Positions 38,563 through 43,575 of a stretch of DNA of 43,598 nt are shown in pieces. Where the stretch lies: positions 1 through 43,598 of the IMG/VR virus record IMGVR_UViG_3300031740_000004. One strand, given 5' to 3'. The DNA is from a virus. A program made the translations under genes and the position numbers. Position 1 is the first letter of the stretch. Each line of letters starts with the position of its first letter. The notes below the pieces were generated by a model. It searched no databases. It saw only the letters and a program-made list of their open reading frames with translations, and was not told where the DNA came from.

Positions 38563-40284
38563 CTATTGCGGGCCGAAGATGTCGCGGTTTGACTGGTTTG
38601 GTGTTCCTCGAAAGAGGGACCCCGGTTCGCCCTGGGATTGCTTGCCGCCCCACAGATCGTGCTCCTTGTTCTTGGTGAACTCGCGCGCTGGATAGTTGAG
38701 TTGAGGGTTATAGCGTCCGTCCACCGTCGGCGGCTGGAATCGCTTCACTTCGAGCGGCGTCCAGCCAGGTGGCGGCGCCGGGAAGTAGAACTTGCCACTC
38801 GGATCGATCTTGTCGAGGTCGCTGATCGCGTCCGGGATGTCGTCGTGCTTGCTGAACGGCCACTCGGTCATCTCGTCGAGCATCGGCTTCCACTTCGTCT
38901 GGAACTGCTGCCGCAGTGACTCGGCGAAATAGATGTTGCCGCCGCGGAAGCGCGGCTCGATCGCCTCGATCCTGATGTCCTTGATCTCCTGGTTGCGCCC
39001 CTCGATCTCGATGAACCGCGGCCGGATGAAGGTCTGCCGACGGATCTCCTCGAACAGCGACATGAGGAGTTCCTTGTGCGTCACCTTCTCGACGCCGACA
39101 CCCTTCACGTTGAGTGCCTGGAAGCGACTCCACAGGTCGCACACGATCCGGCATGAGTCCGACGGCCGCCAGCGGCCGACGTAGAAGTCACGCACGTAGG
39201 CCGTGCGGTTGCAGTCCATGCTCACGATCCAGAAGCAGCTGCGGTCGGCGCGCGCGTTCTTCTTCTCGTCCGCGATGAAGGCAAAGTCGGTGAAGATGTA
39301 GGTCCACACCGCGCTCGGGATGTCCTGGTCCCTGATCACGTGGAAGTATTCGGCGTGGAAGATCTGGTCCTCGCCGGTCTGCGGCCTGTTCTCGTAGAAG
39401 CAGGCGAACAGGCGCGGCACCTGCTTGATCTTGCGGTCAGCGATGAAGGCTCGAGTCAGCCGCTTCGGGAAGAACAGCGTCGCCGGCTCGTTGCCTCGCG
39501 GGTCCACCACAGGCTCCGACCACGCATGCTTGCTGATCTCGAAGGTCGCAGCGATCGCCTCGTCCTTGATGATCTTGCAGTAGATGTCGTTGTAGTGGTG
39601 AAGCGTGCCGATCACGAAGAGCTTGGTGCCGGGATCGAGCTGCGACTGCACTTCCGAGAACCAGGTCCACAGCGACTCGATCGACTCCGGCGTCTTGGTG
39701 TTCTCCTGCGAGCAAACGTCGTCCATGAGCACGACGTCCCAGTGCGCGCCGGTCTGCACCTCGCCGACGCCGGCTGCGGCGAGCGTCGGATCCTTGATGC
39801 CTTGCCGCGTGCGCAGCGCGCTGTAGAACACGCCGGACGCATCCTTCCACTTGTCGCCGCGGTGGACTCCGAACCGATCTCGGAACCACTGGCTGTCGAT
39901 GATCTTCATCACCTCGGAGGCGAACTTCTGCGCCTGACGCGAGGTCTCCGAGCAGATCAGGACGCGGATGTTCGGGTCACGCGCGATCAACCACGCGGCC
40001 TGTCCGATCGTGAACACCTGGCTCTTGAACGAGCCGCGCGGCCACAGCACCAACTTGCTCTTGAAGTTGGTGATCTCCGGGTTGTCCGGGTCGACCGCGC
40101 CGCGCCAGGTGATCAGCTCCTGGCAATAGCGACCGTGCGGCTGCCACTCTGCGTCCGGCGCCGCGCCGCTGTCACGCACGAAGTCGAGGAAGCCCTCTTC
40201 GGAGGTGTAGTAGGCGCGCTCCCGCGCCAGCCGCTCGGTCCGCAGCTGCTCGAGCGTGACCTTCGTGGTCGTTTCAGCTACCAC
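38563..40284 (-). CDS. terL: terminase large subunit (573 aa)
   Basis: DNA-packaging motor and nuclease. The start is the GTG at 40284, overlapping the previous stop; earlier residues of the frame (to 40494) are Arg/Ser-rich shadow. Walker A-like WPRGSFKS is at residues 81-88 (a variant of the P-loop, usual in terminases), and Walker B VVLMDD is near 185. The nuclease part includes FTDFAF near 331 and HDDIPDAISDLDK near 480, which give the metal-binding acids. C-terminal ~60 residues are flexible and Pro/Asn-rich. The preceding gene is the likely small subunit. Confidence 0.9.
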   Translation of the reverse strand: MVAETTTKVTLEQLRTERLARERAYYTSEEGFLDFVRDSGAAPDAEWQPHGRYCQELITWRGAVDPDNPEITNFKSKLVLWPRGSFKSQVFTIGQAAWLIARDPNIRVLICSETSRQAQKFASEVMKIIDSQWFRDRFGVHRGDKWKDASGVFYSALRTRQGIKDPTLAAAGVGEVQTGAHWDVVLMDDVCSQENTKTPESIESLWTWFSEVQSQLDPGTKLFVIGTLHHYNDIYCKIIKDEAIAATFEISKHAWSEPVVDPRGNEPATLFFPKRLTRAFIADRKIKQVPRLFACFYENRPQTGEDQIFHAEYFHVIRDQDIPSAVWTYIFTDFAFIADEKKNARADRSCFWIVSMDCNRTAYVRDFYVGRWRPSDSCRIVCDLWSRFQALNVKGVGVEKVTHKELLMSLFEEIRRQTFIRPRFIEIEGRNQEIKDIRIEAIEPRFRGGNIYFAESLRQQFQTKWKPMLDEMTEWPFSKHDDIPDAISDLDKIDPSGKFYFPAPPPGWTPLEVKRFQPPTVDGRYNPQLNYPAREFTKNKEHDLWGGKQSQGEPGSLFRGTPNQSNRDIFGPQ

Positions 40285-40519
40285 CGCTCCCGACCCACTC
40301 AAGGACTTGGCCAGCTCCGCGGTAGTGCGTGTCGTCCTCGATCTTGCCATCGCACAGCTGAAGGCACTCGATCGAGCAGAAGAACGTCGCGTAGCCGAGC
40401 CAGCGATGGCCGTCGTAGTAGACAAAGGAGTCTGGCGCGATCTTGATCTTGCACTGCGGGCAGGCGGTCGCGCGCGGCGGCACGCCGATGCCAAGGAACC
40501 TGGTGAGCTGGGCTTTCAT
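40274..40519 (-). CDS. small zinc-finger protein with FCSxxC motif (81 aa)
   Basis: The start is the ATG at 40519, with GAGGAA upstream; a longer N-terminus (to 40567) is not needed. CPQCKIKIAPDSF and then ATFFCSIECLQLC make a CxxC...FCSxxC zinc knuckle like MYM/TRASH fingers, around a GHRWLGY strand. It ends 10 bases into the large terminase gene. Very similar in design to the next two small proteins. Could help packaging or bind nucleic acid; not known. Confidence 0.7.
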   Translation of the reverse strand: MKAQLTRFLGIGVPPRATACPQCKIKIAPDSFVYYDGHRWLGYATFFCSIECLQLCDGKIEDDTHYRGAGQVLEWVGSGGS

Positions 40520-40737
40520 GCTTTTCCTCTCAGCGTCCGCATCTTGCTGATCCACTTCCAGAAGCAATCTGAACTACAGAAGTATGGACCCTCGATCGCC
40601 AACTGTTTGCATCCGTCCCACATGCATGTGATGTGCTGACTACCAGGGTTGGCCGCGCGACGATCATCGGCCTCCTTGCGCATGTTCAAGAACTGCGCGA
40701 TCGGACCCTTTGGGTCATCAAGATCAGCCAGAGACAC
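40516..40737 (-). CDS. small zinc-finger protein with FCSxxC motif (73 aa)
   Basis: The protein has ITCMWDGCKQLA and GPYFCSSDCFWKWISKM, a C-x4-C...FCS-x-x-C treble-clef-like knuckle near residues 38-57, and a basic end. The N-terminal helix (GPIAQFLNMRKEADDRRAAN) could dock to a partner. ATGA overlap with the following zinc gene and overlap with the small-terminase-like gene show a coupled chain. Function unknown. Confidence 0.65.
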   Translation of the reverse strand: MSLADLDDPKGPIAQFLNMRKEADDRRAANPGSQHITCMWDGCKQLAIEGPYFCSSDCFWKWISKMRTLRGKA

Positions 40738-41476
40738 CGGACACCTCGCCTTCGCCTTCGAGTTTCAGAGCCGGCACCTCGTCGATCATGGTGAAGTCAG
40801 CTCGCTTGAGCTCTTCGATTCGCTTCTGCTGCTTGCGCTCGAGATCGAGCATAGCATCGATCTCGGCCTTCTGCTGCTCGCCGAAGTTGACGTTGTGGGT
40901 CACCTCGACGCGGCGCACCGCGCTGTCGACAATGCCGAGCGACTGCAGGATCGCCACCAGATCCTTGGTCACTCGGAAGTAGCTCGCCCACTCACCCTGC
41001 TCCATCAGCCCTTGCTGGGCCCGCTCAGCGGCGAGCTGCACGTGGCCGGCCAGCGTGTTGAGCCGGATGTTGGCGACCTGCGCGCCGATGTTGTCGGCGT
41101 GCTCGTTGTAGATCGTCGACACCTCGAGCGGAGGGATACCAAGCTCCTGAGCGATCACCTCGCCGCGGTAGCCTTGCTCGCGCAGCGTCACCACGAGCGC
41201 GACCTGTTGCTGACGGAGGAGGGTGGCGAACCAGGCCGACCGCTGCGGTCGCATCGTGACCTGCAGCTCGGTCCACATGCGCTTGCCAAGGTCGCGCATG
41301 GTGAGCGCCGACGTGAAGCCGTCCTTGTCCTTGGACGGCGGCACGGTCATCGCGCCAGAGTCGACGACCAGATCGACGAGCTGTTGGAGGCTCAGACCGA
41401 TCGAGTCCGCGGCGCGCTGGAGCTTCTCCTTCGCCTCCGGGTCGAACAGCGGCGTGGCGCGTTCAGCTTTCGCCAT
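40724..41476 (-). CDS. probable terminase small subunit (250 aa)
   Basis: The start is the ATG at 41476, next to a GAGG; a TTG at 41482 is close. A central helix-turn-helix-like region (VVTLREQGYRGEVIAQELGI, then PPLEVSTIYNEH) could bind the packaging site. The C-terminal half is helical with coiled-coil heptads (MLDLERKQQKRIEELKRADF). Order TerS, two small zinc proteins, TerL is plausible for a packaging module. The identification rests on position and the DNA-binding motif, not on sequence similarity I can prove. Confidence 0.55.
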   Translation of the reverse strand: MAKAERATPLFDPEAKEKLQRAADSIGLSLQQLVDLVVDSGAMTVPPSKDKDGFTSALTMRDLGKRMWTELQVTMRPQRSAWFATLLRQQQVALVVTLREQGYRGEVIAQELGIPPLEVSTIYNEHADNIGAQVANIRLNTLAGHVQLAAERAQQGLMEQGEWASYFRVTKDLVAILQSLGIVDSAVRRVEVTHNVNFGEQQKAEIDAMLDLERKQQKRIEELKRADFTMIDEVPALKLEGEGEVSGVSG

Positions 41477-41660
41477 CCTCAAGCTCCGATTCGATCACGT
41501 CGGCGTTCTCCGCGATGTAGGTCAGCAACGCGCGACGCACATCATCGGTCGGCTCAACGTTCTCGCTGCACCAGATGAGGTAGCTGGCTGGAACCTTCTC
41601 GAGTGGGACGCCTTTGTGTTTGCCGAACGGCATCGGCGTCTCGTCGTTGAACGCCAGCAC
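41463..41660 (-). CDS. DUF3820-like small protein (65 aa)
   Basis: The start is the GTG at 41660, eight bases after the upstream stop. MPFGKHKGVPLEKVPASYLI, followed by W-C-S-E-N, is a close match to the DUF3820 core; the rest is one helix (RRALLTYIAENADVIESELE). It is a better match to the family than its plus-strand relative at 4424-4684. The domain is widespread, but its molecular role is unsettled. Its last bases overlap the small-terminase-like gene. Confidence 0.75.
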   Translation of the reverse strand: MLAFNDETPMPFGKHKGVPLEKVPASYLIWCSENVEPTDDVRRALLTYIAENADVIESELEDGES

Positions 41661-41668
41661 GGGACTGC

Positions 41669-41842
41669 TCAGTAGCAGTATCGGGCCCGGAAGACCTTGG
41701 CCATCTTCGGCGAGAGTTCCACCAAGTCCTTCGCGATGCGTCGCATCCACGCCGCGATGTCCTTGGCGCCTTGCTTGGTGAGTTGGTCTGGCCGCTTCAC
41801 GGTGATCGTGGCAGCGAAACGTTCTTTGCGTTTGGTCTTCAT
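41669..41842 (-). CDS. hypothetical small basic protein (57 aa)
   Basis: The ATG at 41842 overlaps the Acb2-like stop (ATGA). The sequence is Lys/Arg-rich, with KERFAATITVKRPDQLTKQG at the start (beta then helix) and a helical C-terminus (AWMRRIAKDLVELSPKMAKV). Basic small protein, probably nucleic-acid associated, without a recognised family. The frame extends upstream to 41989 within the neighbouring gene and was not used. Confidence 0.6.
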   Translation of the reverse strand: MKTKRKERFAATITVKRPDQLTKQGAKDIAAWMRRIAKDLVELSPKMAKVFRARYCY

Positions 41843-42084
41843 GGCTTCTGTGGCACCACAGCTTCCGAGGTCTCGGTGGCGATCCCGAAATTGGCGCGCA
41901 TGCGCGCGTCCTCGAGATGGGTCAACGCGAGCGACAGGCCGCGGCCTTCCGGCACCACCTCGCACAGGATCTTCGCGCACAGGAAGCACGCATCGTTGAC
42001 CATCTGGAACCGCGGCAGCGTGTCCGAGGTCGGCGGGTGGTAGTAGAACCGATTGCGCAGTTCGACTTCGGTGGGCTTGGTCAT
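41839..42084 (-). CDS. acb2: Acb2-like anti-CBASS cyclic-nucleotide sponge (81 aa)
   Basis: The start is the ATG at 42084, overlapping the upstream stop (ATGA). The N-terminus carries ELRNRFYYHPPTSD, and the C-terminus GLSLALTHLEDARMRANFGI, closely following the family pattern I know for Acb2 (F-x-YH-x-P near the N-terminus and SLALT-x-LE-x-A-x-x-x-AN-x-x-IA at the C-terminus). Acb2 proteins from phages bind cyclic di- and tri-nucleotides and so block CBASS (cGAS-like) immunity. Size (81) and all-helix layout fit. Residues that contact the nucleotide must be checked, since a Lys common after 'PP' in the family is Thr here. Confidence 0.7.
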   Translation of the reverse strand: MTKPTEVELRNRFYYHPPTSDTLPRFQMVNDACFLCAKILCEVVPEGRGLSLALTHLEDARMRANFGIATETSEAVVPQKP

Positions 42085-42335
42085 CGTCGTCCTGGCATCA
42101 TGCCTTGCCTTGGTCCAGCAACCTCGCAACTGATGTCCGTCAGGATGCCTTGCAGTTCGGAGAGCCAGGCAAGCACTTCACCGTCCACGATCTCGTCCGG
42201 GCCTTCGTTCTGGATCTTCACCTGGATCGCGTCAGCGAGCACACGCGCGCGCTCGGCCAGCCACCACTTGCGCAGCATGATCGGGGGCGGCTTCACGCGG
42301 TCGGTGAAGCCAGGAGTTGGGAACGGCGAGTCCAT
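42081..42335 (-). CDS. hypothetical protein before Acb2-like gene (84 aa)
   Basis: A small helical protein: RKWWLAERARVLADAIQVK, then EVLAWLSELQGILTDISCE, with a basic, Gly/Arg end. The two tryptophan-rich helices and lack of other motifs give no clear function. ATGA overlap with the Acb2-like gene means the two are probably translated together, so it might share a counter-defence role (inference only). Confidence 0.6.
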   Translation of the reverse strand: MDSPFPTPGFTDRVKPPPIMLRKWWLAERARVLADAIQVKIQNEGPDEIVDGEVLAWLSELQGILTDISCEVAGPRQGMMPGRR

Positions 42336-42341
42336 GCCCGC

Positions 42342-42704
42342 CTACTCCTTCGGCGGTCCGCTGACCTGCGTGCGCGGCTTGAACTCGACCTTGACCTGCG
42401 GCTTCTCCTCGAGGTTGATCCTGACGATGTGGATCGCCTTGGCGATCATCAGCTGCTTGCCGACGAACTGGGCGCCTTCGCTGCGGATGAACTTCTGGGC
42501 GGCCTGCGTGCTGTCGAATCCGGCGATGCCAGGGGCCGGAACCAGCGTGCCCTTCGGCAGCTGCTCGTCCTCGGCGATGATGTAGATCCTGAAGTCGCCA
42601 CCGCTCTCGCCTCCGAACAGCTTGAACCTGCGCTGCTTCTTCGCGCGCTTGGCTTTCGGAGTGGCAAGAGTCTCGTCGGTGGGAGTGGTGAGAGTTTCGC
42701 TCAT
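42342..42704 (-). CDS. hypothetical protein (120 aa)
   Basis: The N-terminus is a Thr/Lys-rich, probably flexible, basic linker (TPKAKRAKKQRRFKLF). The core has strand-type segments (DFRIYIIAEDE, IHIVRINLEE) and a helix (STQAAQKFIRSEG). ATGA overlap with the first gene of the operon. Small alpha/beta protein of unknown role. Confidence 0.65.
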   Translation of the reverse strand: MSETLTTPTDETLATPKAKRAKKQRRFKLFGGESGGDFRIYIIAEDEQLPKGTLVPAPGIAGFDSTQAAQKFIRSEGAQFVGKQLMIAKAIHIVRINLEEKPQVKVEFKPRTQVSGPPKE

Positions 42705-43189
42705 GGCGACTTCTCTACACTAGGCGGCTGTTCTTTTGAAGTGGCATTTGGAATCTCGCCGCGCTCTCGAATCCCTCGCTTGGTCGCCTCGTTTTCCAGC
42801 TTCACCCTCTCGCCGCTGTAGCCGATCGACTCGTTGTTTTTCAGGAACTCAACGACTTCCGTGTGGCTTGGCAGGTAGGTGTGCCCTTTCTCGGCCTTGA
42901 TGAGCTTACAGGCCAACGAATACTTGTAGGGCCACAACCTGTAGTCATTCAGCACGCGCTTCCTGCCAGCGTTCGGCACCTCCGGCTGAAAGTTCAACAC
43001 CAACGCGCTGCACTTGTCGCACTGCAGCTTGCAGGACTCTTCGAAATACCACACCAGGAACTCGAGCACGCGGCCTGCAGTGATCCTCCACTGAAAGCTG
43101 CCGAACTCCTTGTCGCGCTCCTGCAGGTTTTCCACCAGCCGCTGGAACGCCAGATAGGCCAACTCATGCACTCCGATGGTCTTGGTCAT
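42701..43189 (-). CDS. hypothetical protein, first gene of minus-strand operon (162 aa)
   Basis: Starts at ATG 43189 (behind GGAGG, though spacing is only two bases) or at a GTG 18 bases upstream. The N-terminal half is helical (LAYLAFQRLVENLQERDKEF, VLEFLVWYFEES). The middle has CKLQCDKCSALV, a possible zinc knuckle, and then DYRLWPYKYSLACKLIKAEK. The C-terminus is charged and likely flexible. As the first gene after the control region it is probably made early. Function unknown. Confidence 0.65.
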   Translation of the reverse strand: MTKTIGVHELAYLAFQRLVENLQERDKEFGSFQWRITAGRVLEFLVWYFEESCKLQCDKCSALVLNFQPEVPNAGRKRVLNDYRLWPYKYSLACKLIKAEKGHTYLPSHTEVVEFLKNNESIGYSGERVKLENEATKRGIRERGEIPNATSKEQPPSVEKSP

Positions 43190-43268
43190 GGCCTCCAACT
43201 GCACCACAAACCTGCCTCAAGTTCAACTCAATTCTTGCTCAGTTATGCGTGTAGCTGGGGGGGTATTA

Positions 43269-43285: not shown

Positions 43286-43299
43286 TGAGTCCTGCTTAC

Positions 43300-43349
43300 A
43301 GAGAGAGAGAGAGAGAGAGACAGATCAGTAGTAGTCTCTCTCTCTCTCT
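43300..43349. repeat. GA/TC inverted repeat (simple-sequence hairpin)
   Basis: Ten GA units at 43301-43320 are followed by a short spacer and then a TC run (43335-43349). The two runs can pair over about 15 bp around a loop of ~14-20 bases. Alternating purine and pyrimidine tracts may also form triple-helix (H-DNA). It lies ~110 bases before the first minus-strand gene. It might be a slippage product, a pause or termination site, or a recognition site. Confidence 0.6.
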
Positions 43350-43496
43350 TCTATCTCTTGAGTAGAGATTTTCTTCGGCATATTTTCCATGGTTTCTGCA
43401 GGTTGGCCTCGGTTTTTCCGTCAGGTTGGCAGCTGTGAGGGTGGGCATTGCACTTCTGGGGCGCAGGTGACCCGCGCGATCGATCGCACCTCGCAA

Positions 43497-43575
43497 ACTT
43501 GCAACCATTGATTGCATGGACACTTAGGATGCAATGCTCACAACTTCTTTGTCTACCTATTCATAGGTTGCAAGT
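43497..43575. repeat. nested inverted repeats at window end
   Basis: Outer 10-bp arms (acttgcaacc and ggttgcaagt) enclose the ATTGCAT/ATGCAAT repeat and a second perfect palindrome, ACCTAT-TC-ATAGGT (43555-43568). Such iterated symmetry in an AT-rich stretch is typical of operators or replication origins; no further evidence separates these. Confidence 0.45.
43511..43535. promoter_or_regulatory. ATTGCAT / ATGCAAT inverted repeat
   Basis: A perfect 7-bp inverted repeat with an 11-bp spacer. It is nested inside a wider pair of complementary arms, acttgcaacc (43497-43506) and ggttgcaagt (43566-43575). Spacing of about two helical turns centre to centre fits binding of a dimer. Related TTGCA sequence recurs several times in this segment. 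Confidence 0.45.

Follow-up and report, generated by a model that had tools for sequence, protein, structure and literature searches.

A putative Acb2-like sponge gene ahead of the terminase genes of a soil phage

Introduction

Studied members of the Acb2 family soak up alarm molecules made by infected bacteria. An Acb2 protomer has three helices, of which one is short and the other two are long and antiparallel (review PMC12043709). In T4 Vs.4, Y8 and F82 stack, Y8, H11, K23 and R79 make polar contacts (K23 in the cGAMP site), the hexamer interface includes L29, A66, A73 and A77, and loss of function follows from T12I, A77I and the interfering change S74N (Jenson et al., PMC10097602); T68M reduces binding (PMC12657230). 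In the literature surveyed, the Acb2 proteins with published binding data, those of T4 and PaMx33, represent a single branch, phrog_717, and no determined ligand was found for another cluster, phrog_1454. Actinophage proteins have already been annotated as cyclic oligonucleotide sequestering proteins or putative Acb2 (PMC13348362; PMC11953737), including Statler gp57 (PMC13348362), so the gene described here is not new as a kind. It comes from a soil phage, IMG/VR record IMGVR_UViG_3300031740_000004, whose 43,598 nucleotides were analysed as one stretch (hereafter, the window).

Results

A first-pass annotation of the window, made from its letters, had proposed an 81-residue Acb2-like protein on the strength of two motifs, F-x-YH-x-P and SLALT...AN. 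The open reading frame is real and lies on the minus strand, which that annotation had not given, with its ATG at 42084 and its TGA at 41839 (Table 1); both motifs are present, as F13-Y-Y15-H16-P-P and S51-LALT-H-LE-D-A-R-M-R-AN65. The resemblance extends beyond chance: residues 15-69 align to positions 2-57 of the 58-position Pfam profile PF24729 (Acb2/Tad1 hairpin) with E = 1.3e-10 and a score of 41.8 bits, above the cut-off of 27, the best PHROGs match is phrog_1454 (E = 2e-15), and homologues in other viral contigs are 39-83% identical. The PF24729 domain was found once in the record, in this gene. When the window gene and its four closest relatives were compared pairwise over a 63-codon core, dN/dS ranged from 0.03 to 0.43, and the protein is therefore maintained by purifying selection. 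T4 Vs.4 (PDB 7UQ2) and PaMx33 p26 (PDB 8H2J) also match PF24729 (71.4 and 66.5 bits), but their best PHROG, phrog_717, is not that of the window protein, which instead groups in phrog_1454 with actinophage relatives.

Table 1. Position of the acb2-like gene and its neighbours in the window
Feature	Position	Strand	Match or remark
168-aa gene, first of the unit with acb2 and the terminases	42701..43207	-	
120-aa conserved gene, which neighbours acb2 on its upstream side in distant L028, L031, L034 and L035 as well	42342..42704	-	
84-aa gene, directly upstream of acb2, ATGA overlap	42081..42335	-	35% identical relative in L003
acb2-like gene, 81 aa, N30 and R61 type	41839..42084	-	PF24729 / phrog_1454
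57-aa variable gene downstream of acb2, ATGA overlap	41669..41842	-	in L003, second acb2-like copy there
95-aa protein	41463..41750	-	PF12843 (QSregVF_b) domain
Small terminase candidate (terS), synteny partner of acb2	40724..41482	-	HTH-like, adjoins terL; named by position
Large terminase subunit (terL)	38563..40494	-	phrog_38, E 1.8e-72

The first-pass annotation had named a profile search and a structure prediction as checks, and both agree with an Acb2-type protein. An AlphaFold2 monomer model built from 18 aligned sequences (pLDDT 86, pTM 0.74) places helices at 6-13, 23-43 and 48-71 followed by a disordered tail, with no strands and no Tad1 beta domain; one short and two long helices correspond to the protomer reported for Acb2. 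When the model was compared with viral models (BFVD) using Foldseek, the top matches were mainly Acb2/Tad1 hairpin proteins, with probabilities up to 1.00. Foldseek against the PDB gave no significant match (T4 Vs.4, E 6.8), and T4 Vs.4 had a VIA Z of 5.9 amid unrelated helical bundles at Z 5-6.5, so that comparison of the model with solved structures adds or subtracts little, and the predicted fold rests on the family profile, the AlphaFold2 topology and the BFVD matches.

At the level of sequence, a direct phmmer search of the PDB returned no match, and a match of the profile A3 to 7UQ2 was discounted as circular because A3 contains T4 Vs.4. A profile lacking T4 found 9PTQ, 'Acb2 homolog 43' (E 0.003; hhalign E 5e-6), for which we found no publication. 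This protein matches without gaps and shares the PEGR loop and the T-x-LE motif, but it has Thr in place of Tyr15 and the usual arrangement of Lys at 30 and Met at 61. Together with the kept interface residues described below, these results uphold the family assignment of the first-pass annotation. Its remark on ligand choice fares differently: Lys had been taken as the norm after the double proline and Thr as a departure, yet among 106 distinct relatives Thr is the commonest residue there (25%), followed by Lys (22%) and Asp (17%). Thr19 is thus not unusual, and we rejected it as a signal of altered specificity.

Pocket and interface residues were mapped to T4 Vs.4 using alignment A3, supplemented by hhalign for the second helix. 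On this mapping, which for helix 1 is an ungapped spacing at 22% identity without a strong score, the Tyr of the CDN pocket (T4 Y8, here Y15), the helix cap T12 (T19) and T68 (T55) are kept, as are the interface alanines A66, A73 and A77 (A53, A60 and A64), while interface L29 becomes C36. Four of the five cGAMP contacts are changed (H11 to P18, K23 to N30, R79 to F66 and F82 to A69), and the position of T4 S74 is occupied by R61, which faces N30. The proven sponge PaMx33 p26 also lacks equivalents of H11 and F82, and it keeps a Lys (K26) and an Arg (R85). Relative to both T4 and PaMx33, the window protein has a short interhelical loop, Asn for Lys at position 30 and Arg at 61. R48 of the PEGR loop, conserved in 85% of relatives, was aligned by hhalign, weakly, to R67 of PaMx33, an arginine that reportedly binds cyclic trinucleotides.

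The change of most T4 cGAMP contacts would also suit a Tad1-like sponge, one that captures the cyclic ADP-ribose isomers of Thoeris, either alone or besides cyclic nucleotides. Tad1 (PDB 7UAV, 8KBF) shares the Pfam domain with the window protein, and the C-terminal hairpin helix of both carries R-x4-ALTH-[LV]-E-x-A-x-M; the alignment to 7UAV shows 24% identity over 50 residues. However, the N-terminal beta-sheet that forms part of Tad1 (review PMC12043709) has no counterpart in this 81-residue protein with its all-helical model, and we regard a Tad1-like activity as unlikely.

The residues at positions 30 and 61 vary in a coordinated manner across the family. Of about 110 distinct relatives, 81% carry Arg at position 30, and most have Val or Met at position 61. 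After fragments were dropped, exactly one of the two positions was basic in 106/106 distinct relatives (85 at position 30 and 21 at position 61), and neither a both-basic nor a neither-basic protein occurred among these 106. The two residues oppose each other in the hairpin (loop 44-47), at positions that correspond to the T4 cGAMP site. Actinophage phrog_1454 proteins such as Malthus gp5 (~40% identical) share the F-x-YH-x-P and ALT-x-LEE motifs and have Arg30, a non-basic residue at 61 and Trp63, whereas the window branch combines Asn, Ser, Thr or Gly at 30 with Arg61 and often Arg63.

In a tree built without columns 30 and 61, the 30/61 label changes four times, the two positions switching jointly each time, and well-supported branches force at least two of these joint switches. 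One switch separates the lineage of the window phage; others fall at L032/L033 and L113. A sign test on the tree gave p 0.5, there being too few independent pairs for significance. Since some scans had used patterns containing R61, with a risk of sampling bias, we added a sample of bacterial genomes drawn by HMM. No protein basic at both positions was found in that sample, in which partial matches are uninformative; a divergent protein, L181, is basic at neither position, and L172 is split between two frames. The simplest reading of these sequences would be that one phosphate-binding arginine has moved across the hairpin and, with the charged pocket residue on the opposite helix, this branch may take up a different molecule.

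The absence of K23, R79, H11 and F82 equivalents could alternatively mean that the protein no longer binds any signal and persists for some other reason, but this is improbable given the purifying selection, the exact 30/61 compensation, the like absence of H11 and F82 equivalents from the proven sponge of PaMx33, and the loss of Y15, R48 and T55 in a second copy of contig L003 and not in the window gene.

The genomic setting of the gene is that of a packed and conserved block. ATGA start/stop overlaps join acb2 to its neighbours at both ends, as expected of a compact transcription unit, and the arm continues through the terS candidate, terL, portal, and tail and internal virion proteins. Contig L001 is identical to the window at either end and spans the gap between the ends with 2396 bases (L001 1091-3486); the unit accordingly starts at the 168-aa gene (43207), three genes before acb2, and part of the genome map, which is circularly permuted or cyclic, is missing from the window. 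The first-pass annotation had placed the gene in an early operon. Instead, acb2 shares the strand of terS and terL and precedes them, the SNF2-type helicase and primase genes being oriented the opposite way, so its location resembles the start of the structural arm. A promoter and terminator scan found neither. Nor did the suggestion of further counter-defence genes in the chain find backing, as none of the neighbours hit an established counter-defence family in Pfam, PHROGs or NCBIfam, libraries that hold few such families; most neighbours of acb2 have no recognised function.

Several other features of this region were observed. Immediately ahead of the gene that opens the acb2-terminase unit is a long inverted repeat of the (GA)n / (TC)n type (~43296-43350), and positions 43301-43529 are conserved at the DNA level in L002, L003, L004 and L021. 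The PF12843 protein also shows resemblance to the C-terminal part of DNA polymerase III epsilon and exodeoxyribonuclease X-like proteins, two small Cys-rich zinc-finger-like genes (40274-40737) lie between terS and terL, and in the opposite arm the SNF2-type helicase gene (PF00176 and Helicase_C) occupies 52-1668. As to the host, TerL is only ~25% identical to known phages and a genome scan matched two metagenomic records, Bacterium BMS3Bbin02 and a Planctomycetota MAG, which is insufficient to name one.

L028, L031, L034 and L035 retain the order 120-aa gene, acb2, terS although their Acb2 is only ~45% identical, and acb2 is therefore an old resident at this locus. At least nine contigs have a terS homologue near acb2, with acb2 identity as low as ~45%. 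The interval between the two is variable: the window has the 57-aa gene there, L003 a second acb2-like gene and L004 nothing. The second gene of L003 (4571-4816) follows the first in tandem and is 60% identical to the window gene. Its product carries Asp in place of Tyr15, Ile in place of Arg48, Met in place of Thr55 and Arg in place of Met62, and its protein evolves faster (dN/dS 0.45-0.70); these changes point to a second sponge that is either decaying or newly specialised.

A virion or packaging role for the hairpin, for example as a partner of the small terminase, would explain the fixed place of acb2 before terS in these contigs, and the copy in mycobacteriophage Malthus likewise sits within a gene block before the terminase. 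Family members nevertheless occur in unrelated places, near WhiB in Gordonia phage Daredevil, between lysin and holin in Gordonia phage Jace and near regB in T4, and the sponge pocket and interface residues are conserved, which makes such recruitment a poor candidate. Taken together, the PF24729 match, the Acb2 topology, purifying selection and the conserved place render the identification of the 81-residue product as a putative Acb2-like sponge well supported.

Discussion

We propose that this gene probably encodes an Acb2-type nucleotide sponge that would act as a hexamer against CBASS-like signals. The 81-residue protomer, with its short N-terminal helix and two long antiparallel helices, would most likely form a hexamer. 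This would bind, stoichiometrically and without cleavage, the cyclic nucleotides with which a CBASS-like host system signals alarm, and with the signal captured the CBASS-like effectors would stay off. In this branch, Arg61 may take over the phosphate contact made by Lys or Arg at position 30 in other Acb2s, in which case the fit of the ligand is probably changed. As R48 aligns with the PaMx33 arginine reported to bind trinucleotides, a cA3-type ligand would be a reasonable first guess.

A bolder possibility, which we hold tentatively and consider rather doubtful, is that the Arg61 branch constitutes a separate Acb2 specificity class, in which the move of the arginine would have turned the pocket from 3',3'-cGAMP to another signal, such as a trinucleotide, a mixed-linkage dinucleotide or a cADPR isomer. 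Panoptes-type systems respond to sponging of their cyclic dinucleotides, and the Arg61 arrangement is perhaps also a way to avoid tripping them.

The phrog_1454 branch is widespread, occurring in soil viral contigs and actinobacterial phages. With the 30/61 arginine pattern, the family can be divided in two by a simple sequence feature, and the two parts are predicted to differ in ligand choice; such a marker would help to infer from sequence alone which host signals a phage silences.
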